Part shown: piece by piece, positions 2,721-62,900 of the stretch
Numbering within the stretch: position 1 is the stretch's first letter
Layout: every line of letters begins with the position of its first letter
Assembly (NCBI GenBank): GCA_009192285.1
Contig: WBVU01000011.1
Coordinates: 988,668 to 1,052,667, forward strand
Source: Morchella semilibera
Taxonomy: Eukaryota > Ascomycota > Pezizomycetes > Pezizales > Morchellaceae
Direction: 5' to 3'
Length of the DNA stretch: 64,000 nt
Translations under genes and position numbers: made by a program
The notes under the pieces: generated by a model
Told to the model about the DNA's origin: nothing
Database searches by the model: none
Seen by the model: the letters and a program-made list of their open reading frames with translations, nothing else

Positions 2721-5700
2721 TTAATAAGGATTCTCGCCGTAGAATGCCTTATTTCCAACTCCCAAAACCATTAATTCAGAGTGCGGCGCGTATGAGCTAA
2801 AATAAAAGCCCATCATAACAGTAAGATAACTCAAAATCAGAATAGAACCCTGGAGTGTTATGTTAGTAACTTGTTATACAGTCAGCACTAGAGTGGTGTT
2901 TGGCTTGCCTTGAAATAATTGCTCTTCCCTTCGCCGTACATGTACGATAGCAGGAATACGCAAAGAATAACGGTGACCAGATCCCATTGTGGGAAGATCA
3001 AACTGAAAGTATGGTTGAAGAGTTCTTTCGGATCAAGAGAGATGGCAAAGAATGCGCTGAAAGCGACCAATGCAGGAATCTGCAGTAGACACACCTGTAA
3101 TGCATATGCAGAACCAATTTCCATACTGAGCGCGATATTACCGTTCATGGCGAACGAAATAGCGTTCTACAGAACAATGGTTAGCAAGAGAAAGGAAACT
3201 CCAGAGACACGAAACATACCAAGAACTCAGTTGTATTTGGAACAAGCGCAAAGAGCGTAATACCCAGGAACTTCTCATCAATCTCAAAATTTTCCAATAC
3301 AACATCGACAGTATCAACCAAAATCTCAGCGATAATGGCGTACAAGACAGTGGCCCCAAGCAGGATGATAGAACTCTTTGCTTTACTCCAGTTAGGAGCA
3401 TCATGTCCGCCCGCAGCATCATGGGGTGCGGTTGGGACACCCTCCTCTACAGTAGGCATAGATACCAAAACAGGTCTAGGCGTTGCACTAGTCTTTCTTC
3501 CACTATGGCGCTGGACATCCTGAACAGCCGCTGTAGCTGCAACAGCTGCCACTTCTGCAACCCCGCGGAATACTTCCTCACGGGTCAACCCTGAAATGTT
3601 GGACGCGTCCTGTGGCCTAGAGTCGCCTATAGAACCATACCCAGGAGCTGAAGTAGATAGCAGTTCATCACTGGCAGATCTGGGTGGAACCATGTGTAGA
3701 GTTTGGCCTGGCCCGCCAGCATCGCCTCGCAAACCAACACTGTTTTGTGTTTGCCCAAGGATACGTTTATATAGCCCAGTGTCCCTCAAAGAATTAGGAT
3801 TCCTGACATCAGCAGAGGTTCCCTCATTTCCGCGTGATGATGCACGGACAGTGTCTATAGCTGCATGGCTAAGTTGGGTTTGAGGCTGAGCTGTAGATGC
3901 TGTCCAAATGACAGCAGCATGAGTCCTCAAAGTGAACCACAATCCAATGACGTATGAAATGAAAAGAAAAACTGCGCAAAGGTATGTATATGGCTGAACA
4001 ACATCTCTATAGAAATCATTGTTCGTAGTGGGGGGCGTTTGAGTAAATGAACATCGACGGCATTCCGCTTTGTCTACATGTGGTGAACATGCACGACAGC
4101 TGAGTTCGTACTATTTGGGGAGTCAATATGGGTGTTATGGGTCACAGAAGATTTAGGAGGTACCTACTGTTCCGTAAATTTGGTAGAAGAGAGTGGGGGC
4201 AAATGCACCAATAACAGCAAAAAGCAGCATGGTGGATGTAACACCGGCAGATCTGGCATTGAAACGTTGGGTCTTTCTTTTGATTGCGCCTGAGCACATA
4301 CTCAATCCGGGCATGAAAACAACACCGACTAAGATGCTGCCTACAACACTGCCCTCCACCAATCTACCTTTCCCTTCAGTCAATGCGACACAGTATAGGT
4401 AAACTTCGACCACTGTCGAGAAGAACGCGTTGATAGTCGCACCCATCCCCATACTCGACTGAGCGGAGATAGAAGCCACAGCTTGTCCGATAAAGTACGC
4501 CAGTGGGATAACGGAAAACAAAGATAGGGTGAATACTGTGGCGGGTGAGGTCAGGGGATTAATAATTCCAAATGTCCCTCTTAAAACGTAGTGGTCGGCA
4601 ATAACGAAGATCACAATGGTCATAAGGTTAATAAAGAAAATATTGGTCCCATCTATAGTATACTTGTAGTATTTCCAGCCGACAGCGCGGTAGGTGCAAA
4701 GCAAGATGGATGTTGATGGGGTTCCGGGTCTCCTGGTATAGGTATGATCTGAATGGAATGAAAGCGCCAAAGGATGCCGCCGGAGGTGATCAAACAAGAG
4801 AGAGGTAACCTTGGCCATCGGGATAGTGAATACCAACAACCAGCAGATACCCGAAACTAAAATTAATAGAGGCGCTGCTGAATGTCAGCTTCCGGCTTTT
4901 GAAGACAGCAATCAGTAGCGGGAAACGTACCAATGATAAAGTAGAACCAGACGAAGAACAAGACTCTACCAATATTCCACTCGCCACGACCAAAGAGTCG
5001 CCTTTTCTTCCCACGGTCCGCTGGAGCTCCACTCAAGAGTCCTGTTCTTTCGCCAGTCCCTAGAATCGAATCAACGTCTACCGAATCAAGACTCTCCCTC
5101 CTTCTCCCGACCAATGTCCTGCTGGGCGGATGAGGCCCAAAGAATGTCCTTCCCTCCTCGATATCACCGGCCTGCCACTGTTCATACTCGCTTATACTTC
5201 TTCCTTCGCCCTCGTCTTCCTCCGCATAAGCATCATCTTGCTTAAGTTCCACGAAATGCCCAAAAGGATAAAACAAATATGCAGCCAGTCCAAGGAGAAC
5301 CCGGCCGTATTCCCTAGCGCTCAGGGCAAAAAAGAAAATATAACAGGTCGCCGCAGCAACGCAGATTACTAGGGAAAGCCACCATCCAAACAGCGCAACC
5401 CATAAGATATTTACCAGAAATAAGGCACCCCCGACACGCCCCCCTGGAGCTGAATGAATGTCGCCTTCTGCCGTACGCTGTACCGAACGATTTTTCTTGT
5501 AAAGTGCGGGTTTCCATATCCTAATACCGAACGGATGCGTGACATTTATTGCCTCTTGACGGTCCTGTGAAATGTTAAAATACGGCGCGAACATAGTACT
5601 CACGATCATAACATACTTTCAAGGTAAAAGATTCCACACTCCCGGCATCGCTGGCTTCGTAATCATCTGCCTTGACGGTACCCTCCTCCTCCCCATCTTC

Positions 5701-6699: not shown

Positions 6700-9609
6700 A
6701 GTGCACCAGGAATGTACTATGTGGGTATCTATCTCCAGGAGAGAGCTCACGCAAGATATGGAGATAGAGAGAATGAACTCACGCCTGAGAAGAAACTAGG
6801 GTTTCCTCTTGGCTTGGTATGGCTGGTGTTTTGATTGCTGTGGTTATCGGACGGGCATAGCGAGAGGACAGGGATGACGCGATGCGACTAAACAGGAAAA
6901 AACAAATAAGTTTACCCCCCCCAGAGACGCAATTTCAGCAGTCGACATTTATTCCGGTTGGGCAACAACAGGCTGAGATTGGGTCAACACCAAAGGGTGG
7001 TTTTTTTTGCAGTGTGAGAAGGGAGTGGGTACATGAAGGAATCACAAAGATTGATATTTAGATAGTCTTACTACTACTATAGTGCATACATCCCAACTGC
7101 TATGTTAATATGGGGAAGGGCGGGAAAACGACGGTTTGAGAAAAAGAAAACCAGGAAAGTTCAAAATAAACCGGGAAAAAAGCAACTATCCACCAAGAGG
7201 AAAGGAATAGACTGAAGGATCAAAAAGAAAAGGAAGAAAAAAAAGAAAGGGGATAGCGACAAATGAGCGACAGCACAGCACGAGGTGAATTAAGGAAGAT
7301 TCCTTGGTCGTTGAGGATATTCACTCTAGAAAAACTTATGTACCTCATGTCTACTCCTTTGGAGTACTTACATGACATAGAACTGTACCCACATGTAGCT
7401 CTCTACTTTGTCTCCCCACGCACACACATGGACGTTGAGGTAGACTCGTACCATGTTGACGTTTATGTACCCTCGATGTACTCTACCTAGCAATTTCGCT
7501 TTAGATGCTTGTCTAGAGTACAAACAAGAAACCGGTGCAGTTCCATCGTCGGCAAGCTTAACTGTTTACCACTCGCAAGCCAGGGTTCACTTGCAGCATT
7601 TACGTACAGAGGTCCAGCAATGGAATCGCTCGCTCGCCGCGTGATGCGCAGATCCGCGGCTTAGTGCGTACAACTACGCAACTTCCGCAGCCAAGCAAGA
7701 GCCCAGGGTGTCCAACCGAAAACTCACGAACGCCCAAGTCACTGGATGCCCCCGACATCATAAACCAACGACATCCACCATGCGAGCTCCTCCATTTTTT
7801 TTTTCTTTCCTTCAAGATCCAAAGTAACAGTCGTCTTAGGTTCTGGAGAGGGAAAAAAAATTAGATTTCCCTCACGTCCTTGTCCTCTACCTAGTCCTAG
7901 TTCCCTCTCCTCTCTTTTTTTTTTTTTGTGCCCCACTCCTCCAATCCCATATTAACTTCAATGACCATGAACAGAACTGAATAACAGACCGACAGACTAA
8001 ACGGGGCGACTGACAGTCTGCACGAGGTCAAATAATCCCGGATAAGTGGCCGGATAACAATCACGCTGACAATCTTACCTCTTCATGCCTGCCAACCCAA
8101 CCCCAACTCACAAGCCGACCAGGCGACAGGTCAGAATGTTAGATATAAACTGAGGATACTCTATCTAAATAGTTCAAGGAGCACGGAACAATATGGTCAC
8201 ATTGCAGAATTAGATAACTACATGTAAGTAACTACGACAACCCAGACTGTTTAATGAATTTCTTTGGGGATCGGGGCAAACCCCGCAGGGTAAAAATAAC
8301 GGGCAACATCCCCATGACTTTCTCGTTTCAGCCATGGATGCAGAGTAAAACCTTATGTACATACTTACTGTACTTCGTACATACATGCGATACATGATCT
8401 TCATCTGAACTCTCCTCTAGCACAAGAAAGAAGGAAAGAAGGGGTGAAAAACGAACAAAAAACCACGATCGCAAGTACGATACTACTCCCGCATCGGACA
8501 AAAACAAAAACATTCGACATGAGTGATGAAATTACTTGACGTCCCCGGGTGCGAGTGCGAGTGCGCGCGCGGTTAGTATCCCCATTTTCTTTTTTTATAG
8601 CGATCCCCACCAAATGTGTCTCCAGGGTCGGGACACCCCACCGTTGACTGGTTCGGAAGCGATAATCGCCGCTGCCAAGGCTGCCAATATCAACCTCTAC
8701 CTTATTTGAGCCTCCCCTTACCTCACCTATTTCAGGGAATAATAAGAGACTTGGCCATCCCAGGGATCATTAAAAAAAAAAAAAAAAATACGCCTTGCTA
8801 AACCCGATCATTGACCCTAATAGTAGAAATGGCCGAAATGGGCTAGAAAGAATCACCTTGCATGTATTCTAGCATCCCAGTATTCATAATTCATCACTCG
8901 ACATTGCACTGCAGGAGGCAAGCTGCAGTGGGGTGGCTATATGAACCCTCGCGTATGTTACATCCTTTCGTCCCATCATGCACGAAAGGCTACCTGCAGC
9001 GTGGAGAACACGTTCCGGGATCCTCCGAGAGTGTCTGGATCGTATGAGCCGCATGTAGAAACCGGGTATGTAGCATCTATGGGGCGAGAGCGGGCATCAA
9101 ACCCGCCAATTCGTACAAAGATATGTGCTGCTTCCTGGAATCGGCTCTCGCTGTGACGGGTGAAGGAGATTTAGGGGTTTATGGTGTATCTTCGGGGCTA
9201 GATTATAGACCATATGACCGCGTATGTCACCCACATAGGTACAAATAGTAGCTATATAGCCGACGGATAGGGCGATAATTAATAGGAGGACAGGCTCTCT
9301 AGGGGAGGTAGCGAAAGGTTACATTAAAGTAAAATGACAATAGATAAATTATTTTTCGGAGATTTGCGCTTTTGGGGCGCGGCGGATATGAAGAGCCGAG
9401 CGGTCTGTTGTGCTTAAGTCTTGGATTCTGCGTTTTGGCTTTAAACTTTAATTAGCGTGCTTCATCTATCACTCGAAATATTCACGGAATATCACTCGGA
9501 GTAATCCACATTACCTAATCCAGCAGCCTCGTCTCATCTCCAAACACGTACTTGAGCCGTACCCACCACCACACTCATGATCTATTATGGAGGTAACCTT
9601 GCCTTATTA
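6700..9609. other. Gene-poor intergenic region
   Basis: Upstream flank of the exchanger gene followed by about 2.5 kb with no supportable gene. It holds homopolymer runs (T near 7795-7806 and 7915-7926, A near 8771-8787), one TACATGTA (8219-8226) and a TATCACTCGG word (9490-9499) with a near copy just before it. The frames here show no family resemblance and no intron logic. Confidence 0.5.
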
Positions 9610-9732: not shown

Positions 9733-12336
9733 TATCCTACGACTTTCTGTCTCCACTTTGTTAGCGGTGGGGATAACCCTACCCTAGGATACAGAAGATT
9801 TCTTTGGTCTTCTCTTTATCCGATGTTTTTTCAGGGCCTGAAGAAGTCTTTCTCATTTCTCTACTTAGGTGCAGAGCTGGGATAAAGAAGTCATAAGAAA
9901 TGAGCTACCCCCGTCACCGCTAAGGAACCGCTTTTGAAAGTGCTAATATCCGTGTGATTGCCTTTTTCACTTAGTGTTGATTTAGCTGTGCGTATCCCGA
10001 TGCAGCCCTTGGCCAATCTATATACGTGGATCGGAAACTGACCCGCCTTGTTGGCGCCCGTCCCCTAATACATGCGTATAAGTCGATACGCTTCACCAAG
10101 GATGATATTCACCAAGGGTGATATGATATTCGGGAAAGATGGGGGCCAGGTGGTTCTAATGGTTGTGACAGGGGAGTTGGGAGGGTTAGATAAGTATGAC
10201 AAAGAACGCTAATGGGTAGACGATACGCCCGCGGTATTTTACATCTCCTGTTGATGAAATATCTCTAGGTGGCAAGATATTACAGCACGGGGAGTGTCTG
10301 GACTGGCATGAATTCAGTCATAATGGCTCTAGGCTTAGCATGTATGGGTGTCATGCATGGTTCACCAGTCAAGTCTACGTAGTATTTAGAGCTCCATATA
10401 CGATAATAAACCTAGTATAACCAATATTTTCTCCGCCCCGTATGAGCAGAATACTTTCTTTAGAGCAGACTCTCCTCATTTTACATTAACAGATAAGGAC
10501 TTAGGACGACACGTAAGGGCAGCATTCGGGGAAGAAGCACCTATAGGGTAATTATGAGTCTTTCAATATCACGCGGCCTCGAGTATCGTAGCATCTATTG
10601 GGTCTACCTAGGTCGGGGGGTGGGGGGAGAGAAAAGAGGGTAGTCAATTGGAGAGGCAGGGTTTGCGGGGCTCTATGGGTGCCATCATTAGTAGAGTCAA
10701 CAGGTCTATTATCTCACGAACCCCAAGCAACAATGGGAGCAGTTGCGGGTTATGCCGGGCTTCGAGCTACTATCTTCAGGATGCTCAGGCTTTGATTGTT
10801 ATCCATACCTTAAGGTGGTGGAGTGGCCATGGTTGGATACGTCGCTAACCTAGACTACCACAAGATGTATTGGCATGAAAGAAATCCTTCGCTGTATAGC
10901 CACAGGAAAACTTCCACATGGGGAGCCAACTGCAGAGGCTAGACCCCAACAGTGCACCGTCCGCAACCCCCAAGGCCAATTGCCAAAGTTCCCCCAGCCT
11001 TTCCGGCTGTGGGACTTTCTTGGTATGCAATACCCTTCCCTGTCACAGAAAACTAGGCCTACCGCAGCTTTTCGGGGGGGGGGGATATTGGGGGGAAGGG
11101 TGTATTTGAACAGTAAACCTCCGCCAAGACTCTGGGGAGCTGCATTCTGGGTGGATGGAGAAACCCTATTTCATTGGTGCGTTGGTAGACGCTTCGGCTG
11201 ACCGGGGGTGGAATGACCGGGGGTAGGAGAGTTTTATAGATGGCGGTTAGAATAAGGCATTATCGAGAGAGGGTAGGAGTTTTGGGCGCATCATAAGTCA
11301 TCACTCGGGGTTCTCCGCCTTTTCTCCCCACCTTTTTTTTTTGGGGGGGGGGGGGGGGTTGAGATCGTGCCAGCTAGGTCACCCACAAGTTACTTTAGAG
11401 TTTTTTTTCTCTCTCTTTTGGGTACGGTAGATGTCTAGGTGCCATGTACTTCTGAGCCGCTCACCATGATAAAAAGAGGTGAGACCTTTCGAGATTCGGG
11501 CGCCTTAACGCTCTAAGAGTAGAATGTGTAGTATGCTCTAAGAATTATGTGAAGTTCTAGCTCAGCTAATTACCTTGTGAATATTCGGAGTATTGGATTA
11601 AGTGCAGACATTAACCCGTAAGTAACAATACTGGAAACCCTAAAGTGCCTACACACGTAAAAAAAATAGATATACGTGACCCGATAATCATATTATATTG
11701 ATCCTTAAAGAGAAAAAAAAAGTTAGTCCACCAGGGGCAGGATCAACCCGCCCACACACACCACCCGTTCACCTGCCGACTTACCTAATAAAGCCGCAAC
11801 CACCCGGCCCCGTTCCCCCATTAAATTGGAAGCCTTTACGAGTGATGTTTGGTGATCAAGATAAGAAGTCGCTCGGCAAACAACACTGGGTCACCCAACC
11901 GGGGGAATGATGATTCATTACCGGACATGAACCCTTTTGCAAGGCCGGGAGCTCAGAATGCAAGTTTGACTATAGGCTTGGCTTTACATGTATGTCCCCT
12001 GCACATATTCCCGCTGACAGTCGGGGTGATGGATGAGAGCTGTATCTTGGGCTAGTAGTCTCTGAGTTTTGATTAGGTAGACAGTTGGGATTCTTGGCCG
12101 CTTGTCTTGACAGGTGCATGATTTCCACAAGGAGATTGGGTAGCTGGGAATATGGGATGAACTCTGGGGAGATCTTCGTCGAGAAGGCTTCGAGAAGAGA
12201 AAGTAAGTTTCACGATAACATGAAGGCACTACTAATACCCTGCAATTGTATCTGCAATTACCAGTCATTACTAGTTATTACCTCCGCCACTTCACCTCTC
12301 GCTAATCTACACGTTCCACTTCTATCTTTTCATGCT
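9733..12336. other. Gene-poor intergenic region with homopolymers
   Basis: No gene supported. It holds G runs (11069-11080 and 11341-11358), a two-copy 17-bp direct repeat near 10090-10125 (TTCACCAAGG core), CATCACTCGG at 11299, a TACATGTA at 11985-11992 and one copy of a degenerate dispersed repeat (11677-11732). Confidence 0.5.
11677..11732 (+). repeat. Degenerate dispersed repeat, copy A
   Basis: About 56 bp matching 36765-36822 at roughly 80 percent by eye. Shared words include TGACCC, ATTATATTG, TCCTTAAAG, a purine run, and AAAGTTAGTCC. It looks like a relic of one repeat family; no ends or duplicated target could be set. Confidence 0.55.
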
Positions 12337-17945: not shown

Positions 17946-20768
17946 ATAGGAACGTATGCTTTAGTGAATGGAGAGGGCTTTTGGGGGCGGGGTTTGAAGG
18001 GAAAGGATGTGGGGGGCTAACTGGCTGGGTCCAGTGGCGTTCATAGTATCATTATTATTACTTATTGTCATAGCATTAATGGCTACTTCTTGTACACATA
18101 TTTTTATATCTTTATCCCTAGGAACCTGGAGAAAAGAAAACTTGTCCCTAGATTATTCTGCTCTACTGGGTGCTCTGTTTGTGACCGTGGACCAAAACCT
18201 CTTTCTCTCTAGAATTAATTAAAGACACGCCTACTAGATCTAGATTGCAGTATGTACAGCCTGGTAGAATTATTGCAAAAATGGGTCTTGCGTGACCCGG
18301 TAGTCGCCCTATTAGCCCTTAAAGGAGTTTTTTGCTGCAAGCATGGACTAAGAACATCATCATAAGGGTCATGTACCCAGGGTGTCGGAAAGTGATGCAC
18401 ATTCGGTGGTTTCATAGCCACACGGGAGTCAATTTCCACACTGGGCTATTTCAAGGTAGATATGAGTGTGCAGATACTCTTCATTAAATTACGCTTATAT
18501 GGTAGAGAGGTTCTGAATATTTTTATATCGTGATAAAGTATTTGGGCGTTTTCTAGTTACATAAAATGTACATCACTTTTCGACACCCTGTGTACACCTG
18601 TTGTTGTTGTGGAGGTGTTATGCAAATCAGGTTAAAACCGCAAAGAAGGTTACCACACCGTGCGTTGAGAGGCTGTGGTCTAGTGGTTGTGGAGGGATGG
18701 CTTTTGCAATAGCTCTACCAGGCTCTATAGGCACTAAGGCAGACCATCACTCGCCCCCCAGAGAAGGAGAGGGGGGGGTGGGGGGTCAAAGCACTACATA
18801 CATGTATCTCCAACGAGCTGCGGCGGGAGCGGGATGTCGAGTCATGGTTTATCACTCGGCCGTCGCCTCACCAGGCGAACCCCTCGCTTTTTTTGTTTTT
18901 TGTTTAATTCATTACATGTATGAAAAAATCCCTCGCGTTGATTACATGTACTTACGTATTACTAGATGGGTATGGACACTATGGCTTCTAGACTAGATGT
19001 ACGTGAAGAAGGAAGTCCTCTGGCTGGAGATGGCGGGGTTGGGGGGTGCATTTGTGTGTGTGTTTGTGCCGGGTGGAAAATAAGCTTTCTATCCCCTCCC
19101 GTGCCCTGCCCCACCACCAGCAGGGCCAGCCCTAACTGTGACTTACTTAGCAAAGCACTCAGCACGGGTCTGCGGCTTGGCCCACGGGAGAGATTTTTCT
19201 CCCGCCATCTGCACCTCCAATAACGAACGCTCTACCTCCGTCGCCGCCCCACCGTCATGAAGGCTCCAACATCAGTGGGTCTGCGCCTTGGTCTACTCTA
19301 GACACCGTCCTCGGCTTTTGGGTAAGGGCACTTAGTGTGACGGGCTGATCTCTGGGCGTGGCCGAGGAATCGGGGCTTTTGGTTTCTTTGGGCTTTGGGG
19401 CATTATGCCGCTTGGGTGATTCCGGGCTGGTGTGTAGAACGTGGGCGTAATCTGGGGGCTATAGAGGGCTTTGTGGGGTGGGTGGGTGGTGGGGGTACTA
19501 GCTGCCTGGGTGGGGTTGCGTTTTTGCTTGCTGGATGGCGCCCGTGGGTTATGGTTTTCGGGGAGACTTGGGTGTGGGTTTGGCTCTGTCTGTGTGGTTT
19601 ACTTTTTCCGTTGGGGGCTGGGGGGCTTTGGGGTCTTGAAGCTTGGGAGATTGCTTTCTCTGGGGGGTTTTTGGGTGGGCGGGGGTTATGGGGCCGTGGG
19701 GAATGTTCGTGGGATGATCTTGCGCTGTACCATAGAGCTAGCCTGGGAGATTGGGCAGTTCTCTATTGAAAGAACCAACTGAGACAGAGGTATGGAAATT
19801 TTTATATATATCTAAGACGACATCGACTAGGGCCTGAGAGGGCAGTGGGGAAATTGGGCTGAGACAAGGAATGTATGGCCCTCTGGGAGACTGTGCCGGA
19901 GCCGTTATTCACTTTGGGGCTTTAAGTTTCCGCGGCTGGTGGCTATCGCTGTCCGTAAGGATCACGCAGAGGAGTATTTGCCATGACTTGGCTAGGGGTA
20001 TATTGTCCCACGAAGAGCTCGGGCATGGAGATAGAGAGATAGAGCGGAGAGAAGGCTGCCTTGTTATTTCTACCCTTTCTTACTGCCTCACCCGCCCCAT
20101 GAATCAATGCACAAAATGCACACTTCCAGTTTGTCCGGTGCGCTTGGGGTCCTGATAGCGGGGGGTTATCCGCTAAGTTTTGTGGGAAAGTTCTACATAT
20201 CCGTATAGTCGTTTTTTGCGAGCCCGGGTATGGTCGCTGGTGCGAGCTTTGCCAGTCTCCGCCAAAGCAGGTTACTGTGGCTCAGTGGTGTGATGTAGCC
20301 CAGCTACTATTAGGGTGATAGCCTACGGGGTTGAGGAAGCAAGGGTCGAGGGGGGAAACTTAGCATGTACCTCCGGCGGAGGTCTAGAGCTGGCTGTGAG
20401 ATATCGGGGCTGGTTTGGCTGTCTGTATGACGTTACATACAAAGGGACAAGGCACATCGGGGGTTCAGGAGAGACGCCATAGTAGTCTCAGGGGAGAGAA
20501 AGCTTAAACGGAGGGTCGGGATAAGGTCGCTTGAGCAAACCCTCACTATCATGTGTAGATGGCGGGTCCCGCTTTACCTATGGGGCGAAGGCGCTTTAGT
20601 CTCTCGCTGTGTCGTGCCTGTTTCTGTGGGTTGGATGCTATAAGCTTGAGTTTGGTCTGTCTCCGTCGGGTTCACTAAGGGGCATTGGGGATAGATGGTC
20701 TTGGGGATATATACATAGAGTTGGTGCACACGCATGAGAGAATAGGGAGTGAAGTCATAGTAGCATCC
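17946..20768. other. Gene-poor intergenic region
   Basis: No gene supported. It contains three TACATGTA sites packed into 150 bp (18799, 18913, 18943), a TATCACTCGG at 18850-18859, and a strongly G-rich plus strand from about 19440 to 19720. Long open frames at 19395-19780 are Gly/Trp-rich products of that G-richness and are not treated as genes. Confidence 0.5.
19475..19495 (+). other. G-quadruplex-prone motif
   Basis: Four G-tracts of three or more with short T-based loops fall within 21 bp on the plus strand, starting GGGGTGGGTGGG. Further G3-G6 tracts follow at about 19614-19704. Folding is inferred from the sequence pattern only. Confidence 0.7.
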
Positions 20769-24275: not shown

Positions 24276-25216
24276 ATATAACGCCCCTCCCAACAACAGT
24301 ACGCCATCCGACCAACACAGGCAGCACCAAACCACTGGTGGATTTTGGGGGCGTGCTAGGCCGTACGTTCCCCCCCGACATGCATTTCAATCCGTGGGGA
24401 GCAGCCTCTACGGACACCTTGACTTCAATTCTGGGGCGCTGGGAATTGGTGGCATGTACCTACAGCTAGCTAAGGCTCGGCGCGCGCAACGGTGCTTGTA
24501 GAGACCGCCTAGGTTTAATTGTCATTTGCCATGTACTGTATCTACTAGAGAAACGCCCAGGAGCGTAGAGAAACATAAAGGTTATATAGCGCCAAGACCG
24601 AGCCGTCGTAGCTAGGTCGTTGCATCACCCCCGCCCGGGGTACATACATGTACGTAGGAGGTCCGCCCCATCACAGAATATCACTCGGCGTGGAAATGAT
24701 CGCAATTGCATGTGGTAGCTCTGATCTGTAACCTCCAGCTGAGTAAGTACATGTAAGTAGTTACACCGTCCCACCGGGAGCGGTGCACTGTAATACCCCC
24801 CCCCCCTTTTTTTTTCTTTCTTTTCTCTGATCACGCAAACATCGCCTCTGCCCTGCCCTGGGTGGTAGTGGTGGCGGGGGGGGGTGGAGGAATATCAAAC
24901 CAAACCAAGCCTGTGTTGTCTGGTATAATTTTTGGGGCATTTCGAGACCCCATCCGCCCCCCCCCCCCGCCCCCAATCTTACATTTTATGTAGAAGTACA
25001 GCGGTGCAGAGCACTTATATATATATATACAACCAAGTATGATACAAAAAAAACAAAACAAAAAAAGAACTCTAGGAATATATATGATATCTGGTATTTA
25101 TTTACTTGTTAAGAAAAGAGACCGGAGTCAGCTAGCTAATGGTAGAGAGAAGGAAGGGAGGAGGAGGAGGAGGGGGGGGGGGGGGGGAATAAAGGGGAAA
25201 CAAAATAGACTACCGT
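24276..25216. other. Intergenic region downstream of the repeats
   Basis: Holds two TACATGTA sites (24645, 24748), one TATCACTCGG (24679-24688), poly-C and poly-G tracts (24789-24806, 24957-24971, 25171-25187) and an AT dinucleotide run near 25018-25029. The right end must hold the 3' UTR of the helicase-like gene. No gene supported. Confidence 0.5.
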
Positions 25217-38932: not shown

Positions 38933-38950
38933 GTAAGTACATGTACTTAC
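38933..38950. repeat. 18-bp perfect palindrome centred on TACATGTA
   Basis: GTAAGTACATGTACTTAC reads the same on both strands. A second TACATGTA (38948-38955) overlaps its right end and short GTATGTA repeats continue to about 38970. Confidence 0.95.
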
Positions 38951-39401
38951 ATGTATGTACTTGTATGTATGTAATCAACAGAATGCCAAGTCCGAGTGAC
39001 GAAATGTGACTCGCTTGGTCATCTTGCAAGTTCCTGCTGAATTCGGCATCAGTCAATTATCAAGCGTATGGATATTGTTTTTTTTTATCATTGAACATGT
39101 GTGCAGACAAGAACATGCATCTACTGACTGACATATTATTAATTTAAGAGATAAACATTCCCAATACGATGGAATCATCCTCTCATCCTCCCCCCCCCCA
39201 GAAGAGTTGACTAAGCATGCATGTCATACCTGTGGCTTTTTCGCGCCTCGCGTTCCATCCAACAACACCATCAAGAGCCCCAGCCTTCTTCTTAACTTCT
39301 TAAGGTACACACTCGTTCCCTTATTATCCAGTAACCCATCCATTCACTATCCATCCCCAAATTTATCGGGGAAGTCCTGATAGCCTCACACACTCCCTAC
39401 C

Positions 39402-40519: not shown

Positions 40520-41969
40520 AGTGGGCTAATCTGTCATAAACAATCAGGAATTTAAAATGGAAAAAATGGAGGGAAATAATGACTAGGCGAAGAATAAAAT
40601 GTTTTTTTATCTCCTACTTTCTTGCTTTGCGTTTCGTTTTCCCGGGCTTTGGCTTTTTGTGAGCGCGGGTGTGTTCTTGGTATTTTCTTTTTACTAAGGC
40701 TTGATACTATTCCTCTACTATCTTCACTGCTGTATACTATGACCCAATAAATATCAATAAATTTGCACCTTCTAAGGGAATTACGGCCTTCTTAATTAAT
40801 GCTAGGAATATGTAACAATTCTATACGCACTCGTCTTCTAACAGAAAATGGGGCTGCCGTCCGATCAATAAGGACTTGAAGGCCTCCGTCTAAAATGGCG
40901 ACATGGCAAATCTACGGTCCTCTTATAAGAGGGATGAGTTCGAAATTAACATGCCTTCAGATTGGTGACTGGCATTTGATTCCAAGATGGACCAAATGCC
41001 CTATATATACGGGGAGAAGAGGTCAGCTTGGACCCCAGCGGTTTTTCAGGGCGGGACATCGATCTAACTATATGACTAATATGTATTTAATTCTAGGCTT
41101 TCTACTAAACTTCCGTTTCTTTATATGTACAACCTCCATTGGCTCTGGATATTCCAGCTAGGATTGAAGGAGTATCGTATGAAGGATGGAATCTACATGT
41201 ACCTAGATGTGGTTTCCGTATGCGAGTCACCGGGACCCATGAGAGATCACCAAAAAACTGCACTATAAAATATCTGACGGCGTAATATTAGCTTACGATG
41301 CAGACAGAAGCTATAGTTATCTATAAGGCCCGACCCGACCTGAGACTCAATGGGCAGCCACGACTAAGTATTGGGTTCCCAGGCGCATAGCCCTCAGTGT
41401 TTATTTGGATGGATGATATACCAAGTGGTATAATTCGATGGGTTTCCCAACTACATGTACTTATGGTCCTGTGGTAATGAAAGGGTTAATTGGATGTGGA
41501 CGAGAGAGCACTGTGGGCCGCATTAAAGCCGCGCTAGTGGTCTTGGCAAAGAGTCAATGATTGATATGGTATTCGACCATAATTCGCTCCCAGACATCAA
41601 AAGCAACGTCTCCAGGTCTACTGAGGACGTTTTAAATCAACATCGAGGCCCCTAATGTCTCTGCTACTGCATCCTCGAGTGACCACTCATGTCTCCCTCC
41701 CACGCTCCCTGTGGTCCGGGTAATTCCATGCACGGGCTGTCTTGGTTACATCATAGCGTGTGCCGTGGTCGTCGTATCACCACTAAGCACATGCTGGTTT
41801 CACCATACAAGGAAAATCCGGGAAACTCTCAGCTTCTAATAGACGGCCAGATTGCACTTTCTTTCCCGTTTCCTTTCCATCCTTTCTCTACTTTTTATCA
41901 CTCAGTTGCAAGAATAGAGGGAAACCATCATACACCAGAATTTAGAAAGGATAGAGAATACAAGCAATT
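40520..41969. other. Intergenic region
   Basis: Between the SR-protein gene and the TMEM16 gene, both plus strand. It holds two TACATGTA sites (41194, 41452) and, in the last 110 bp, a CT-rich stretch ending TTTTTATCACTCAG, the probable core promoter or leader of the TMEM16 gene. A frame at 41689-42123 overlaps that gene's first exon in another frame and is not real. Confidence 0.5.
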
Positions 41970-48697: not shown

Positions 48698-48725
48698 CAT
48701 TCATAGCTACATGTAGCTATGAATG
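48698..48725. repeat. 28-bp perfect palindrome centred on TACATGTA
   Basis: Half-site CATTCATAGCTACA is followed directly by its exact reverse complement, with no spacer. The central 8 bp are TACATGTA. It lies in gene-free DNA about 2.2 kb upstream of the oxygenase start codon and 6 kb left of the alpha-galactosidase gene. Confidence 0.97.
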
Positions 48726-50970
48726 CCAGTGAAACATATATCATGTAGCATTAAGTATAAGTATAAAGTGCAAGAAGCCCAATGGCATTTGACACGCCCA
48801 CACGACTCACTCCCAATTCAATTCAATTCAATTCTGTGTGACGTGGTGCTCTGTCTGTCGCAAGTATCGCAGGGGGTGATTGGTGGGGGGACGAAATTAG
48901 AAAGGGTTCAGATTATTATAATAAACCTCCCGATGATCTGGGACAGCCACGTATCCCTTCTTAATAAAGAGCCACATGGCGGTTATCCTGGTTGTGATTT
49001 GGTGGAGCAGAAGAGCAGCATGAGTTTAAATGTTGCAGGATTAACGTTTGTTACCGCTTTGGGAAGGGGGAATGGATTTGAATAAGGTTATCCCCAGGAC
49101 CAGGGCGAGTCAGTCTGCGGTCGAGTATGTAACCACATCTTAATCTATCAAATTGTTTCCCACCCCACCCCACCATGCCCTCTCCCCCAAGATGGGGCAT
49201 GCATGCCTTCGTTCCTGGTTGTATGTTGGGTAGGTATTCCAGTACTCTACTTAGAGTACCATGTGCTTAGATCTAGAGTGTCCCTGCATGCATCTCAGTA
49301 GAGTAGATAGATACACACGGGAAGAACAATCAAGACCTCACCAATGTTAATCCACATCAATCCAATTCAGGTATCCTCAACGGACACATCACGAAGGTGG
49401 GGCGTTCAATTGAGCATAACAACACCAACCGCACCAATGACTTATATCCAGGTCCGAATTGAGAACCTGTTCTCTCAGCCCCAGCTTCAAGAAGTGTTAC
49501 TACTGGTGGGGGGTAATGTCTATGAAACCCCCATACGGACTTCTTATTCTTATCTCATCCCGCGCGCGACAACGTATGTAGATACACGTACCTACATACA
49601 TAACATCATCATCGCCAGGCCAGTCAGTTCCTCGCTCGCCTGCTCAGCCAAATATCTTCCACATAGCTCTCGTTACCAGACCTTGGATCCAACCTGCAGG
49701 GAGCGTTCACCTAGAGTAGGAAGAGTAAGCACCAAGAAAAGTACTTCCCCGGCGGCGGCGGGTGCAGGTACTGTAGTCCGCACGGCTACCCAACCAGTGA
49801 GAGGGAGGCATCGATCGCATCACAGCATCAGCACGCCCCCGCCGTCAAAAACAACACACGGCCAACCGCTACGTGGAGAGTATCTAAATATGTAGGTACG
49901 CCCACATGTGCATCAATCTTCTACGGAGCCGAGCAGCGCGTTCCTGGCGAGCGGGCGTATGAGCAGCCTACACGTCGGTCGGACGGGAAGAAAAGCTGCA
50001 CCTCATCGATATACCACCGCGCGGTGTGGACTGAGGAGCTGGAGTGCACATGGACGGGCCGTCTACTCCTCAGCTTTGGAGTTCGATTGGGGTATCATCT
50101 TGAGATGTCTTTCCCATTATGGGTGATCTATTGCGGTGGATTGGGGATTTGGAAAAAGAGTTACTATTTGGGCTTGTTACACTTCCGGGACAGTGAAGAA
50201 ACCTTTTTGCGCGCGGAAAGGAAAGCTGGGGATGGGTCTTAGAAACTGAATTGGCCAGCGCCTTGCCATCTGTCAGTCGCGATGAACACCCCGTTGGAGG
50301 AGGAAGAAGGTTATCAGCAGATACTAGCCAGCTCTGGACCTTGAAAGCCCTCACTTATATCAGTTGATCTTAAGTGATCATTTGCTTTTGACACTCAACT
50401 CCCGCTATCGAAGTTGCAATGTCTTTCGGGCGCGGTCAAACGTGGCCTTCAGTACTGCCTGGATTGACTACTTGTCTTGACAGCGAAAATCATCCTACAT
50501 AGAGAAGAAACCTTTAGGCATTCGTTCATACCCGACATTGTTCCTCTAGCTCTCTTCCCTATTCTCACCATCACCCCAGAATTTTATCCCTCCACTCTCT
50601 CTACTACAACCTCTTAATTCGCACTCTGCATGCCATGACTACATGTATCTCTCCTTCATACCACAAACACCGTCTACGATCTCAATAACAGCAGTGAGGA
50701 GGTTGCGCGCAAAAAGAGTTTTCAGAAAGCATAACATGTATCTGGGCTGCCATTCCTTCACAAGATATCACTCACCAATTATGAAGGAGTCTCTAGTATG
50801 ATTCCGGGATATCGTGGGGTAACGGTTCCCGAACCCCACACCACTAACCGAGGATTTGCCTGCCATTTTTGACGGCTATCTGCTGCGGTCTCGCGGGCCG
50901 CTCCTGCTTTGTGGGGTCGAGTGAGAGATGTTGTCTGCTGGTGTTGGCTGGCCATGGGTTGAGTCGGGCT

Positions 50971-50998: not shown

Positions 50999-53805
50999 CC
51001 TCGAGTTACAAAGAGGAACAGCTGGATCAGTGTCCGGAGATGTCCTCATGGTTGTTGCATGTGCTTGAGATGGCCGTACGGGGGCGACTAGCCCCGGGGC
51101 AAAGCACATTACCTAGCAATTTGCTTTGGGCTTACACGGGATGCAGGGCCCCGGGAAGAAGGAATTGCACTTAGACAGGCCCTGACTCGGGAGCTTACTG
51201 TATAACTGGCTCGGCTACAACTGTGGAGATTACGGTGGAATTAAATGCATGTATTTTAGGTTCTGCCGGTGTTACTGGCTGTGTAGATGGCCCGTGTAGT
51301 CAGTCAATCAGTCGGGCGTGTCCGTAATCTTCTCTACTATCCGGAACTTACATGTAAGATCATGGGCCAATGGTAGTAATATTACACGTAGAGTACAACG
51401 GTGCTGGTGGCCACGAATAAGACCCAACCATCGACTGTAACATAGCACCCTGCACCTATAGAATCTGGCAAGCTTGCGGTTGGCCGCTGGGGTGCCTTAT
51501 ATAATTATGGCAATATGTCAAAGGAGTGACTGATTGGGTCAATTAACTTGGCATCGCAATTAGAGAGCTTAAGCGCCGGGTGTCGTCTAGTTTATGGCCA
51601 CTGACTGGCCCTCTGTGTGGTGCTGGGCCCTCTGCCAGTTGTATTACGAGCTTGGGTCGACTTCTACCGTTAGTATGGGTCGAGAGCGGGAGGTAAATAG
51701 CTGATACCGGAAATAAAAATCCCCACATGTGCTCCTCTCGTTTCTCACGCCCAATCGTTGTCAACACGCAGCATGGCGAGTGACATTTTATGAACCCGAA
51801 TTACTCGGTCGATCAAGTAGTATCGTCTTGGAGGGTGGGGTGCTTCTGCCTCTGGCACTGATGATCTAGGGGTATATAGCGAAAGGCCCAAACAAAGTAG
51901 TTGAAGCACCGCAGCAGCAGCTCGGAGGTATAAGTAGGACCTTTGCTTTGAAATCACCAGGGTTTAATTTCTGAGCGGCATCGGCAATCATGAGGGTTCA
52001 ACCCCTAATATAATAGGGACCCGAAGGCTCTAGCGGGTTGACGGGGCGGTAGGTGTTTTTCTTGCGCCGGGAAGTAAGTGTCCGTTATCAAGGCGTTTGT
52101 GCAGCGCCGGTCTGGCCGTGGGTGTCCCGTCTCGGTCCCTCCTCTGTCGGTCTTTGTGTGCCCCCGGCCCGTTCCTCCCGCTTCAGGGTCGGTTCACATA
52201 CCAAGACGACTAACGACTCGCGTTGCGTGCGGTGTCGCCTTGTCTCAGGCCCGGGTGTGGCGGGTGGTTTTGCGGGGGATCTGGACATGGGGTCGGTTTG
52301 TTGGTCAATCGCACCAGAAACGCTCTCTCCCCATACATATGCTTAGATGTATGCTTCACTTGGCGCACAGCCACTCACTCGGCCTGTTTCGACATACACA
52401 AGCTGTTTGATAATCCATTGATTAACAAGTTTCGGTCTGCTGGTGATCTGACGGGCCATCTGGAGGCTTATGCTTATATGTGACGCGATGTTTCTGTCAG
52501 TTCAAGCTGGTTCTAGTGATGTTGATGGTGATGGTGTCGTTACAGGACGCCGTTTCAAGGACCAAGGCCTAACAAAAGAAATCGTTGAAAAGAAGTTTAC
52601 AAGCGTGCAGACTCCGTTGTGGCCTGTTGCTAGACGGCCCTGAAGGTCTCAAGCTTTAGATGGAGTCCAGGAACGATAACATGGGACGTTTTAATCTTAA
52701 TAGAACCACCGGGAATCAACACCATGAACCGGTAGGCCCAAACTCATTCGCGGGTCTGATTCTACAAAGAATGATAGGTACTAACTATAATTATATGAGA
52801 TAAATCCCACCGTCCCCAACAAGGATATCAACAGCCAGGAGGGGGAAAAAGAAGAAACCCCTACATAAAACACTATCCACATATTACATATTGAAGCCTG
52901 CGATACGGCTATGCGGCTTTAACCGACAGCTCTCTGCGTCACGTCACGGAATGTCTTATTCCTACAAGCGAGGCGAGATGGGGACATTCTGACAGTGTGG
53001 GGCATGGATATGAGGTGCCCACAGTGAGATACATACAATTATGACCATGGATAGGGCACTTTATGTACCCCTGAGTCGAGTTGGGGCCCGACTTTAGGCG
53101 CAAGCGCGCAAGTTCAAGTGGGAAGTATTGCCCTTCTCGCGGATACCGGGATGGTTAGAAAAACCCAATATATGGTTGTAGGCGTGCGATTGAGCGGCAA
53201 GGGACTCCACCCCGGGCTTTAGCTTAGTTCTAGGCTCGGTTTATGTTTGAATGATCCTTTAGGTAAGTGTGGGTATCCTTGTGTGCAGGCCATAGCTTCA
53301 TTTGCACCGATATTGGCACTGAATAACTTACTGGGTATAAGATGCTTGATACGGATGTGCGGGATATTACAGCTATCCTGTACGTAGCTACCCAGTAGAG
53401 ACGCCGATCATTGAACTCAACCCCTCAACAATCGTGTAGTTTCGTGTGAGAGACGGTTTTGAAAATAGTTTATGCCCATACTTCCCAGGCTCAATACCTC
53501 GTAAGTATATGTAAACTCTCTTGTCTCTGGGGCGTAATGCGCTAAAGCCTATTCGAGTACAGGGAAATTCACACATATCGGCCCGCAATCCATCTGACCG
53601 ATAAACCCCAGAGTTCAGGCTTTTATATACTCTATACCCCGATGGAGACGGCATCTAGATCGGTACATAGTGGCAACAAAGCCAAATTCTCCGCATGCCC
53701 CTGCTGAGAATATGGATTGTTTTTTCCCAGTTTTAGCCACAAGTGCTAGTTGTGATGTACCTGCAGGTTATATTATATTACGCTTTTGTTTTTTTCATAT
53801 ATATA

Positions 53806-54193
53806 TGGTGCGGCGCGTCTTAAAGGTGACATGTCTGTATTTCAGCTGGAACAATCTTGGCTGCTCCGAACCAATTAGAGCATGGTAATCCAGCCACCTT
53901 ATGGCTGGAAATCACATCTTAGCCGCAATTCGCATGAAAGAGGGTATAAAGGGTAATAATACTGTTCACTTCAACCAAGTCTTGGCACTTTTAGCATAAA
54001 AATAGATAGGTAAAAAGGCATCGTGAAATAGCTTTTCAAACAGGCAACGAATATCAAATAATCTTATGAATCAAAAAATCTTTAAACCATACCCTTTACC
54101 TAACAAATCTGATCTCATAGATTTTTGATATCTTGTCTGGTTGAAAAGTTATTCGCACTGCAATTTCTGTCACCTTTAAGCTGCGCCGCACCA
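53806..54193 (+). mobile_element. MITE, copy 1 of an inverted pair (388 bp)
   Basis: TA-flanked element with terminal inverted repeats of about 26 bp: the left end starts TGGTGCGGCGCGTCTTAAAG and the right end closes CACCTTTAAGCTGCGCCGCACCA. TA lies at 53804-53805 and 54194-54195. Internally it carries GGAACAATCTTGGCTGCTCCG near the left and AGATTTTTGATATCTTGTC near the right. No coding capacity. Size, TA target and ends fit a non-autonomous Tc1/mariner-type DNA transposon. Confidence 0.85.
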
Positions 54194-54218
54194 TATTCTG
54201 GGCCTAATAGGTTAGCTA

Positions 54219-54607
54219 CGGTGCCGCGCACGCTAAAGGTGACATAAATTGCATCGCTTATAACTCTCTAACCAGACAAGATATCAAAAATCTAACAGAC
54301 AAAATTGTAGGTATACCTAATATGAAGAATTTGGTCTGTTAGATTTTTGATATCTTGTCTGCCATTTACCTATTTTTGTATGTAAAAAGTGCCAAGACTT
54401 GGCGAAGTGGAACAGTATTATATGTATGTACCCATCTTTTTTTTTTTTTTTTTAACTCATAATTTCATTGTTTTCTAGAGTATTATATGTACCCATCTAT
54501 AGCCCTACATTACAGGTTTTCAGCCATAGCATGGCTCTTATTGGTTCATAAGCAATCGGAGTGGCCAAGATTGTTCCAACATGCCATCTTTAAGGCCCGC
54601 CGCACCA
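54219..54607 (-). mobile_element. MITE, copy 2 of the inverted pair (389 bp)
   Basis: The same element in opposite orientation, 25 bp to the right of copy 1. Ends are CGGTGCCGCGCACGCTAAAG and TTTAAGGCCCGCCGCACCA, with TA at 54217-54218 and 54608-54609. It holds a strong internal inverted repeat, CAGACAAGATATCAAAAATC (about 54273) against its reverse complement (about 54342), and a T16 run absent from copy 1. Its right end is 210 bp before the alpha-galactosidase start codon. Confidence 0.85.
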
Positions 54608-56529: not shown

Positions 56530-57111
56530 GTGTGCTTGGCGCTGGAAAAAAAATAATGTTGATTATGACGTATATATAAGTTGAATGTGGCTCGCCTTAG
56601 GCCATTGCTAAGATCTTGGACCCGTTAATTGCACGCGTCCTCATCAATCGGGAGGGTACTCCTTGTACTCTATGATAGGTTGTCTATATATCTTTTTAGG
56701 AGTCTTGAGTACCAGTAGTGATTAGTTGCCATTATGAATTGCGGTGAGGAATGGGGTTTACTGGCTATGCGTGGCATTGGAGGTCGTGATAATGTTTGTC
56801 TCTTGTTGTTTTAACTTCCGGCAATGCTATCTGCTACTGCATGGCGCGGGGAGTAGGGCTGCAAACTATATGTGGCCGATTATACCTTATACCTTATACC
56901 GGGGAGGAAAATATTACCCTGCCTCCGGAGAGTGGGAGGAAAGGGTTTGTCATTGCCTTCGGGCTGCATACATATGAAGTATCAATACCTTATACCACCA
57001 CCTGTGCCCGTTCCGCAGGACTAGATCGTGGTTAAAGCCTGGGGTAGTGCTGAGGTACACATGTGTTTATACTCCGTCACCATTTTCATAACTTCTATCA
57101 GATTACATATA
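56530..57111. other. Intergenic region downstream of alpha-galactosidase
   Basis: 3' flank of the alpha-galactosidase gene, converging on the membrane-protein gene. Short frames at 56744-57035 show no family resemblance. Nothing else identified before the MITE. Confidence 0.5.
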
Positions 57112-57297
57112 CAGTCCAATCGCCCTATAAGAGCTAGAGTACCTTTTATAAGGGTACATGTAGTCGCTTTATAAGAGTATGGGTTCTCGGGCTAAATAGC
57201 CTTTGTACACACAAACTCTCCCTGTATACAAGGGTACATGCCCTGTAAGGCTACGACTTCGCGCCACTTTTGTACCCTTATAGGGCGATTCGAACAG
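57112..57297. mobile_element. Pogo-like MITE, 186 bp
   Basis: TA-flanked (57110-57111, 57298-57299) element whose left end reads CAGTCCAATCGCCCTATAAG and whose right end, reversed, reads CTGTTCGAATCGCCCTATAAG. The shared AATCGCCCTATAAG block is perfect. CAGT-type ends with a TA target are typical of pogo/Fot-type elements. Inside are several partial copies of the end motif (CTTTATAAGAG, GGGTACATG). No coding capacity. Confidence 0.7.
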
Positions 57298-57624
57298 TAC
57301 TATTTGTCCTTAGCGTAATTTGTGCTCGGGAATTTGTTGTTTCATTAAAAAAACACCTGGTCATGAAACCTAATTGTGAAGGAGGGAAGCAGGGTTGTGG
57401 GCCGATTGAAAATAGCAGACTCTTAAGTCATTGAATGTATTCATAGAAACTACAAACCATAGATACCCAGTTCCGAAAAGGAACTCTAAGATATTGTAAC
57501 AACCAAGTACTCCTTTCCTTTTGCACCGTATAATATATATACATTGTTTAACAAAAATTGAAATAAAAGAAAAATAGACATGCATAACATATGTACTCCC
57601 AAGAAAACTCCGCTCAAACAATCA

Positions 57625-59967: not shown

Positions 59968-62900
59968 GCCGAAGATTGAAATCGAAAAAAGATTTTGGGA
60001 AGGGCGAAGATGTGGAGACTTTATGAAGGTATTTTCATGGTCTGTTGGAAGGATCTGCGCTTATGACGGTGGGAGGGATTGGTATAAATACGTGTGTAGC
60101 TGTACGGCACAAACCCAGCATGGGTGGATGGGTGTAGGCCTTGGTAATAAGCACTTGACTTACATGTCGGGCGATGATAAACCACCTCAGCAACGACACA
60201 TATTACTTGTGCTTCTACTCCATAGGTGGACTTACTTGGAATTTTGTGATTTACCTACATGTGTCCCGGTTTTGTCCTATATCTCGATTACTGGACCATT
60301 TTCATATAACATGGTATCAAGAAATTCCCTGTTTAATGAAAAGGTTCAACAGACATGTCAAGTGCTATTCTTTTTAAAGCACCCCAATTGCAACGTTATT
60401 GTAGCGGGCATGTACGGGGAGGAGGAGGAGGAGGAGTAAAAATTAGTGCACCGCCGCCTTGGCTTCAATCAGATCTGGTAAGGTGTGGTAGAGCTGAGAT
60501 TGCTGCTAAACACAAGCCAAAGTTGTCTGTCCTGTCTTGGCAGGTGTTGGATAATCTGTTTACGCCGCAAAAAAGGTCAAATGGGTAATTGTAGAGCAGA
60601 ACATTATCTCGTGCATGTTCAGCCCCCGACAGGGTTTTATTTATGGCAGCTCGTACGAAAACCAAGTTAATTACCTAACTCGATTCGGCCGGAGGCTCTG
60701 CTAGGAATTACATGTAATTAAAGGTTGGAATGTTACTAGTCTAGGAGACCGAGATACATGTAATCGACCCTGTTAAAATAATATGTATATCCTTTTGAGA
60801 CGGATCGGCAGGAGCCTTTCACAACTCTAGACAGCTGTGTGATCTACCCGCTGCTTAACCGTTATCAAGTACATGTACGTACCCATTGCCGAAAAACTTG
60901 CACTTTGTGTAGCCCTGTGCTTCCTCGCCCCAAAGGCCGTAGGCTCATCAAATGATCGATATTGTATACAGATGTGCTTTTACGATTGCGATACCCGTGG
61001 CCGCCATATTAGGCTACGTACCTGAAGACTTGTTTTTTTCTTTAACGCCAATGTATGGACCTCGGTTGTGATACACTTTGGATACTCGTACCTATGTACC
61101 TACTCCAGACCCTTGGATCACCTCAGGCTATTAAGTCCCTTTAATCGTGTTACCTTGAGTGATAGTTAAGAATTTAATTCTACGATGCATGTTAACCTTG
61201 TAGAAAAATTAAGATTCTATCTTATCCGCACAGCTTGAAACGCCAAAAGCTTAATCTTACACGTGGTGCTGCGCCCCAGACTGACTGTCAAATTTCGGAA
61301 ACAATTCCCTTCAGGTACTCTGACGTGACAGAGATCAATGTTCTACAATATAAAGTAGAGTGCAGTTAAATGTAGGATAGAGAGCACCTACAGTGCGCCC
61401 GGGCAGTGTAAAGTTACTTTACCTTTCTTGCCTTCAGCCGTCTTTTCCTGCCTCTTCCAGACATAAGATGTATGGGTTTGTGCCATAAGCCCATTAACCC
61501 ATCCGGGACTTCTCCCAAGCTGCGGTTGGAACCAAACCCAGGACTAAGTCCTAGCTTCATCAATTACTAAGCTTGGTGCAGTTGAGTACATGTAAGCACC
61601 AGCCAAACCAACTCACAGACCATGTATCTTTAGGGGTAGGGCTGAAGTTAAGTTGCTCTCATCTCCTTAGCATGGGATGCGATTGATCATTCGACCGCTA
61701 AATGGTCCTATTGGTAACCAGCAACACCCGGAGGTTGTGGCCAGATCGGAGCAATGAGAGTACGTCCCCTTGCACGGGAATAAATCTCCTGGCTGGGTCC
61801 TAGGAGCACAAGCACCGAACAAAAGCTGTTACCCACTCTGCCAGAGGGATGAATGTCAACTGTCGGGGTACAGTAGAAGTGTATGTGTGGCCTACCGATC
61901 AAATCGGAAATCAAGTGCTGACTACATGTAGCTATATGCACGATACAGATAGCTCAGCCTCTATTAAGCACTTCGCTAATTCGAAAGCTGTGGCGATTCG
62001 GGCTCCGCCTTGGCAACCATTTCACTCTGCTAAGCCTGAACCTTAAATGGGTACATAGCAAGTGTTCGGTCGCCGGAACCAGGAAATCTTTTGTCTGGGG
62101 TATTCTTCTACAACCCTCCAGAAGGCCAAACTTGTGGTCAGTGTGATACAGCAGGATGCCCATGAACTGCTGCACAGTATCTATACATGTACCTATTCAA
62201 AGGTTAGGTATAGTTCCCTGAAGGTAGGGTATATAGCGGGGCATCGATATTTGGATCATAATTAGAACACCGGGAAGGAAGCTCTTAATGTTTACAATTA
62301 GGACACTAAAAACACACGTACCCGATTGTGCGCCTCGTGGGGCTCACTTACTTCACTTTCGAAAAACTTGCATCGGAAAGTGCCCATCTGACGAAATGGT
62401 GGGTTATTACTATGGATGAACTGACGTACACCGATTACTCCACACATCTCTTCACCAAGACCCATCGGAGACGTGGTACTCTCTATTGGCCCGACAGAAC
62501 CGACATTCCACGCCAAGTGTATAAGCACACGCTTGGAATCATGTAGGGTAAGCAGGGCTTCCTGATGAGACATGACTGGAAGGCCTAAAGTAAGGCGGGA
62601 AAATACCTGCTCTGCACTCAATTATCTTTGGAAACTTTTAACTGGGTCCACCTATTATTTACTGCTGTCGCTCAATCACAACTTATCACTCTAAACAGTT
62701 TGCCACAGCTATATATACATGAGGGTTTGTAGACTTGAGCAGTACTCAAAAGTGCAGATAGTAGCCCTAGCGGACCGAACATTTCCCCAAGTCATTCAAC
62801 CCCAGTTTTTATTTATGTTCCCAGCGGGGCCGCGAATCCTTTGAGTCTCAAGAGTTCCATCGGAATTAAGGTCTTGTCTACATATTCACATTGTTGGCTA

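Follow-up and report, generated by a model that had tools for sequence, protein, structure and literature searches.

A palindromic octamer iterated across the genome of Morchella semilibera as a probable excision scar of Tc1-type transposons

The octamer in the window and in the genome

The window considered here, i.e. the whole stretch of 64,000 nucleotides (64 kb) that was analysed, belongs to contig WBVU01000011.1 of the fungus Morchella semilibera (assembly GCA_009192285.1) and is scattered with copies of a palindromic octamer, TACATGTA. Most of these copies lie in non-coding DNA; one is in an exon, one between the exons of a VIP1 gene and one inside a miniature inverted-repeat transposable element (MITE). 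The octamer is probably, for the main part, the excision scar left by TA-targeting Tc1-type DNA transposons and by their MITEs, and would thus most likely be no regulatory signal but a fossil trace of active transposons. An earlier note on this DNA had counted 25 copies, a number which proved exact; its list of starts is correct for 24 of the 25, while the copy given at 60719 starts at 60709. The sites, together with the MITE that contains one of them, are listed below; no strand is assigned to any of them.

2937..2944, TACATGTA in an exon, YMY codons, probably a chance match
8219..8226, TACATGTA, putative excision scar
11985..11992, TACATGTA, putative excision scar
18799..18806, TACATGTA, putative excision scar
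18913..18920, TACATGTA, putative excision scar
18943..18950, TACATGTA, putative excision scar
24645..24652, TACATGTA, putative excision scar
24748..24755, TACATGTA, putative excision scar
33585..33592, TACATGTA, putative excision scar, between VIP1 exons
38486..38493, TACATGTA, putative excision scar
38727..38734, TACATGTA, putative excision scar
38938..38945, TACATGTA, putative excision scar, paired with the 38948 site
38948..38955, TACATGTA, putative excision scar, paired with the 38938 site
41194..41201, TACATGTA, putative excision scar
41452..41459, TACATGTA, putative excision scar
48708..48715, TACATGTA inside a 28-bp palindrome
50640..50647, TACATGTA, putative excision scar
51349..51356, TACATGTA, putative excision scar
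57110..57299, MITE around 57155, ends TACAGTCC.../...GATTCGAACAGTA; 17 further genome matches, one of them on a duplicate contig
57155..57162, TACATGTA, a 6-bp gain at TA in the MITE (alignment with 12 sister copies)
60709..60716, TACATGTA, putative excision scar (misprinted as 60719 in the earlier note)
60755..60762, TACATGTA, putative excision scar
60870..60877, TACATGTA, putative excision scar
61587..61594, TACATGTA, putative excision scar
61923..61930, TACATGTA, putative excision scar
62184..62191, TACATGTA, putative excision scar

Markov models of the window predict 0.7 (order 1), 1.2 (order 2) or 1.6 (order 3) copies of TACATGTA, which, with a z of 26, ranks first among the window 8-mers having a both-strand count of at least 16; it is also the most frequent 8-mer palindrome of the window, the runner-up being present 12 times. 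This abundance extends to the whole genome, where 22,206 copies are found in 56,756,124 bases on 23 contigs, compared with 3,723 copies of the reversed word. The genome-wide count is inflated, because some contigs are near-identical duplicates, while the density is unaffected; the pairs are C9/C10, C12/C13 and C21/C22 (C numbers denote contigs, L numbers fetched loci), which in the three stretches compared differ by small insertions or deletions, nearly all of single bases, and which may reflect a duplicated assembly or two nuclei.

Further statistics were obtained on a sample of 284 kb, composed of the window and of 22 ten-kb stretches, minus the near-duplicate stretches L012, L015 and L025. 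Here TACATGTA is observed 102 times against 4.7 expected; when the sites are masked, the expectation is 4.1 (order 2) or 4.7 (order 3). Scaled up to the genome, this makes about 820-940 copies, and the enrichment is about 24-27-fold. The genome-wide comparison with Markov expectation that the earlier note had proposed as a check therefore leaves the octamer far above it. Among the 16 palindromes of the form TA-NN-N'N'-TA, the second is TATATATA, with 66 copies in the sample against 11.9 expected. The copies of TACATGTA are over-dispersed, with a mean of 3.4 and a variance of 12.2 per 10 kb over 28 blocks. No RNA family above the gathering score and no tRNA were found in the window.

Gain of six bases at TA

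Direct evidence on the origin of the octamer comes from the comparison of occupied sites with their empty relatives. The MITE around 57155 was searched in the genome, and 12 sister copies were fetched and aligned, which bears out the earlier placement of this site inside a MITE. At the position of the octamer a plain TA is found in ten of the 12 copies, followed in one of these directly by a small deletion, while the window copy reads GGG-TACATGTA-GTCG, that is, six bases more than the TA of the sisters; the gap as placed by the aligner is one base off, and equivalent. Since ten sister copies share the short form, the change at 57155 is a gain. Sister copy L050 is unaligned at this position. 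In sister copy L043 (C7:898870-899090), TAATTTA is found at the same TA, perhaps a scar of another type.

For 112 sites in 35 fetched loci, the version with TA alone was then compared with all fetched DNA of more than 50 bases, usable non-coding relatives being counted apart from duplicate contigs and from copies of one transposon. At L017:715, TTAGGATACATGTATTCACTTCT faces the TA-only TTAGGGTATTCACTTCT on C13 (L056), an exact 6-bp difference between two copies; L017:766 is eight bp longer than the same C13 relative, and the coding site L019:9358 differs from its paralogues by substitutions. A 6-bp gain at TA is observed, in all, in two exact cases, with the polarity certain in one of them. 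Of 43 sites searched against the whole genome, with three of the searches scoring the best 40 of about 300 candidates, four had a relative beyond near-identical duplicates at or beside them, i.e. 57155, L017:715, L017:766 and L026:2154, the last being a MITE end; for the other 39 none was listed. As the earlier note had maintained, the octamer is not one copied element, because the flanks differ from site to site, and the 39 sites without a listed relative also indicate that its copies do not all fall within a known transposon family. Even so, a transposon would have produced every one of the sites.

The pattern expected for nested scars, TATAARGGTACATGTA, has seven matches, two of which are the window copy and its C10 duplicate. 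Among the other five (L051-L055), L053 resembles by eye a degenerate copy related to this MITE, into which a larger insertion has come, and the remaining four lack this resemblance. Nested repeats of the type TA(CATGTA)n are given no weight, as about equal numbers are expected under the scar model and under independence. Overall, the direct empty-site evidence is strong in kind and small in number.

Flanks and derivatives of the octamer

The flanks of the octamer follow the consensus TANN-TACATGTA-NNTA. In the sample, position -3 is A in 63% and position -4 is T in 52%, and the TANN flank is present in 76 of the 204 half-sites; genome-wide it is found in 16,337 of 44,412 (36.8%), the corresponding figure ahead of any TA being 9.1%. 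Tc1-type targets typically show a preference at -3/+3 around the TA, and the flanks of TACATGTA appear to resemble the preference of a TA-targeting transposase. At flank positions 1-12 of 111 sites, palindromy is not significantly above base bias (largest absolute z 1.9); the remark that some sites sit in longer palindromes holds for single cases such as 48708, and not for the flanks in general.

Words that differ from TACATGTA by a single mismatch give information on its later fate. With the sites masked, the 12 such words exceed expectation by 56 in the case of transitions and by 15 in that of transversions, compared with an excess of about 98 perfect sites, and transition derivatives are in excess at all four distinct positions. 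Among the derivatives that keep the outer TA, a TANN flank is found in 20.4% of transitions (n=137) and 14.6% of transversions (n=130), the value for any TA being 8.8%. The derivatives fit a one-step birth followed by long neutral decay better than they fit a constrained site.

Tc1-type elements in the genome

The genome contains at least 69 matches to DDE_3, some of them on duplicate contigs. Ends of the type TACA...TGTA are found in L028, L030-L032, L034, L035 and L038. Of these, L030 (on C2) and the duplicate pair L031/L032 are 1,684-bp elements with ends TACAGCGGTAGG, to which L034 and L035 are related; the L028 type, of 1.43 kb, has ends TACAGC[AG]CCTACCC, with TAGG and CCTA as flanks in this one copy, and an end of L038 reads TACAG[TA]CAC. 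The intact frames of L030 (361 amino acids) and L028 (378 amino acids) contain the Pfam domains HTH_Tnp_Tc3_2 and DDE_3, with DD34E spacing, and the closest solved relative of the L030 frame is Sleeping Beauty. A search for the exact end pattern returned 176 ends, many of which, among the first 100 listed, are paired about 113 bp apart as MITEs. The bases of the footprint, CA...TG beside TA, match the ends of elements that are present in the genome.

Two further families were characterized by their flanks. The CAGCGG Tc1/MITE family (L057-L110) offers 54 flanks, of which 93% carry G at -1 and 57% carry A at -3, a strong preference for the target A[TA]G-TA-C. For the CCCCGGGGG MITE family, 28 further matches are listed for the L026 copy besides the C4 duplicate. 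With seven fetched pieces that stop short of an end excluded, 23 of the 35 readable ends read TACATGTACC (L129 being doubtful), and outside these ends TANN is present in 13 of 23 (p 1.4e-8). The flank profile of 100 solitary sites correlates at 0.82 with that of the CCCCGGGGG MITE and at 0.34 with that of the CAGCGG family. In the five CCCCGGGGG copies with both ends read, CAT or TAT adjoins the element on both sides, which favours the reading that CATGTA would be the own end of this MITE and the family a candidate source; some of its ends read TA-TGTACC. If the MITE had instead inserted into existing TACATGTA, the match between flanks would be trivial.

Position relative to genes and other repeats

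Only two of the 102 sampled sites are in stop-to-stop frames of at least 200 amino acids, and such frames hold 17.5% of all TA (p 1.3e-6); the mainly non-coding location claimed for the octamer is borne out. The first site of the window, at 2937, is in an exon as had been reported: it reads YMY, its frame continues a calcium exchanger by eye, the neighbouring frame matches Pfam Na_Ca_ex, and the site is probably a chance match. Likewise, the location of 33585 in the VIP1 intron agrees with the two VIP1 frames that flank it, the 3' one recognized by Pfam and the 5' one by eye. Gene content and one short intron point to a fungus.

Other repeats were noticed during the analysis. At the starts of contigs C1 and C2 (L001:1-80 and L003:1-80), arrays that resemble telomeres are built from a 10-bp unit, CCCTAACTAA (TTAGTTAGGG), in place of the usual one of 6 bp. 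In the window, a 30-bp unit is repeated about 38 times, with 74% matches, in a minisatellite at 22013-23177, and nested inverted repeats, with 90-bp arms inside 47-bp arms and the look of a hairpin MITE, are found at 53956-54421.

Proposed origin and alternative explanations

The origin proposed for the octamer would start with the insertion at a TA of an element with CA...TG ends, which would duplicate the TA and generate TA-CA...TG-TA. In the fungus, the transposase would presumably cut at the 3' ends and, on the 5' side, about two bases within the element, leaving each flank with its TA and two bases of the element; end joining that keeps both overhangs would then lead to TA-CA-TG-TA, joined between CA and TG and six bases above the empty TA. 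A CATGTA gain at TA is what a Tc1-type transposon with CA...TG ends would leave, provided that repair preserves both two-base ends. Most sites would share this origin, the putative scar-making families being elements and MITEs of the Tc1 type. Scars in exons would mostly be removed by selection, while the remaining ones would be neutral and decay by point mutation; long and steady jumping could in this way account for about 21,000 excess copies, or about 0.6% of all TA, as extrapolated from the sample. Among the possibilities raised earlier, that of a mutational product is supported in this specific form by the 6-bp gain at TA, together with the flank consensus, the transition-rich derivatives and the presence of Tc1-type elements with matching ends. 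A protein site has become less likely, since at the sites with a readable empty relative the octamer is a gain of 6 bp (once 8 bp) at TA and its derivatives appear to decay neutrally; some scars may nevertheless have been co-opted as binding sites.

Several observations weigh against an excision origin. The clear empty-site tests number three only, one of them being of 8 bp and not 6; L030:411 differs from L021 by a substitution, AACATGTA, in a weak match (69% over 55 bp, E-value 0.001); none of the nine sites compared between duplicate contig pairs, which may be the same molecule, is polymorphic; and no TACATGTA is found within the four compared copies of the L009 MITE family. The flank bias of the transition derivatives (20.4%) is little above that of control words, whose TANN share ranges from 4% to 18% in words with more than 80 copies. 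A +4 scar would presumably read TACATA or TATGTA, and these words are present 286 times against 170 expected; TATATA, TAGTTA and TAATTA are also in excess, and the TANN values for TACATA/TATGTA, 19.5% and 14.1%, are not clearly higher than those of TATATA (17.9%) and TAGCTA (15.5%). TACATA thus gives 4-bp scars weak support, too weak to serve as proof when other TA-NN-TA words are likewise in excess. The source families are putative, and the CAGCGG family was rejected as the main one, as it targets G-TA-C, unlike the TACATGTA sites. Finally, the nearest long frame places 68 sites upstream and 31 downstream, against a TA background of 7197 and 5858 (p 0.008, with clustered sites not independent); this mild excess favours a promoter role, and insertion into open promoter chromatin would give the same picture.

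The upstream excess and the depletion in long frames both count in favour of the main rival explanation, in which a dimeric DNA-binding protein (a TALE homeodomain, a BEN-like protein or a general regulatory factor) recognises TACATGTA and selection keeps it near genes. We consider it unlikely, since the readable cases are 6-bp gains at TA and the derivatives are mainly transitions at all four distinct positions, not only tolerated near-misses. A six-frame search limited to this protein family, by which intron-split genes could be missed, found one Homeobox_KN match, with the recognition helix VSNWFINARRRR, which by a residue rule we take to be TGIF/MEIS-like rather than Irx-like; an Irx-type homeodomain was accordingly discarded as the binder. 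The proposal of a bound site gains from the listing of the same word among Phytophthora promoter motifs (motif-1, PMC3520976; M93, PMC3597505) and from the ability of the Irx homeodomain and of the NACC1 BEN domain to bind the octamer (PMC3520976, PMC11472053). The palindromic motif of MoISW2 (PMC11481914) was also considered and taken no further, as no sequence was found for it.

A different mutational process, such as slippage at TACA/TGTA repeats or palindrome-templated repair, could explain why TACATACA is enriched 4.3-fold, why TACATACATGTA is frequent among the TANN sites listed and why repeat-like clusters occur, e.g. at 38938-38973. It is very unlikely to be the main source, because flank palindromy is no higher than base bias, no other TA-NN-N'N'-TA palindrome is nearly as enriched, and 57155 and L017:715 gain exactly CATGTA at TA. 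The slimmest chance is given to the view that TACATGTA represents the ends or the favoured landing sites of the MITE with ends TACATGTACCCCGGGGG, and not scars: the share of its ends that read TACATGTACC and the likeness of their outer flank to that of solitary sites are what it would predict, but only two of the 102 sampled sites adjoin this MITE, and landing alone leaves the abundance of TACATGTA unexplained. For a replication or chromatin signal no support was found, direct tests of either not having been made.

Comparison with known systems

The octamer had been likened to HIP1 of cyanobacteria, which is also a highly iterated palindromic octamer found genome-wide. HIP1 occurs in coding DNA as well and is tied to methylation, whereas the fungal TACATGTA avoids long frames (two of 102 in frames of at least 200 amino acids) and originates by gain at a TA. 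A role like that of HIP1 finds no support, no direct test of it having been made.

Other parallels are found among transposons. In plants, TA-targeting MITEs of the Stowaway/Tc1 type leave small insertions (PMC4561436); no description of these as the single dominant palindrome of a genome was found. In Caenorhabditis elegans, taCATGta is named as a rare Tc1 footprint (PMC3520976): the same eight bases are involved, with CATG and a second TA gained at the TA of the insertion site, and the fungus, like the worm, has elements that end in CA...TG and encode a DD34E transposase. The cuts required are of a known type: for ISY100, cleavage is reported to be exact at the 3' ends and to fall two bases inward from the 5' ends, the distance for the Tc1/mariner family in general being two to three (PMC2170065). 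The difference lies in frequency: the 6-bp form is rare in the worm, where the typical scar in the soma is +4 (78%, PMC13148408), while in the fungus it provides the dominant octamer. The scar itself is known; literature searches found no footprint described as the dominant palindrome of a genome and no paper naming TACATGTA along with both a fungus and a palindrome, which is not proof that the scar reading is unpublished.

The same word has been read differently in oomycetes. In Phytophthora infestans, motif-1, identical to TACATGTA, is listed for the upstream regions of 12,070 genes (PMC3520976), and M93, again TACATGTA, is listed as a promoter motif (PMC3597505). PMC3520976 also cites the preference of the Irx homeodomain for TACATGTA, and the NACC1 BEN domain was crystallised on a probe containing it (PMC11472053). 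As in the fungus, the Phytophthora palindrome is abundant, non-coding and variable in its flanks from site to site; unlike in the fungus, it is read as a transcription-factor site, the comparison being made with the published description and with no oomycete genome analysed. In PMC3520976 the footprint reading was dismissed because the motif is conserved and abundant. The fungal genome suggests that abundance alone would be no bar to that reading and that the Phytophthora motif may be worth re-testing. The M94 word, TACCGGTA, is not clearly enriched in the fungal sample (5 against 3.7 expected).

Palindromic octamers that greatly exceed expectation are taken by motif finders for transcription-factor sites. 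As a tentative extension, possible but short of probable, Tc1-type scars could become the top over-represented octamer of a eukaryotic genome, and TACATGTA of motif-1/M93, and perhaps TACCGGTA of M94, would be scars as well; such genomes would then log tens of thousands of excisions that can be read and dated, including those of vanished families. If such an octamer is a transposon scar, scars would allow the counting and rough dating of past DNA-transposon excision, and promoter motifs of fungi and oomycetes, motif-1 and M93 among them, would need to be re-tested.

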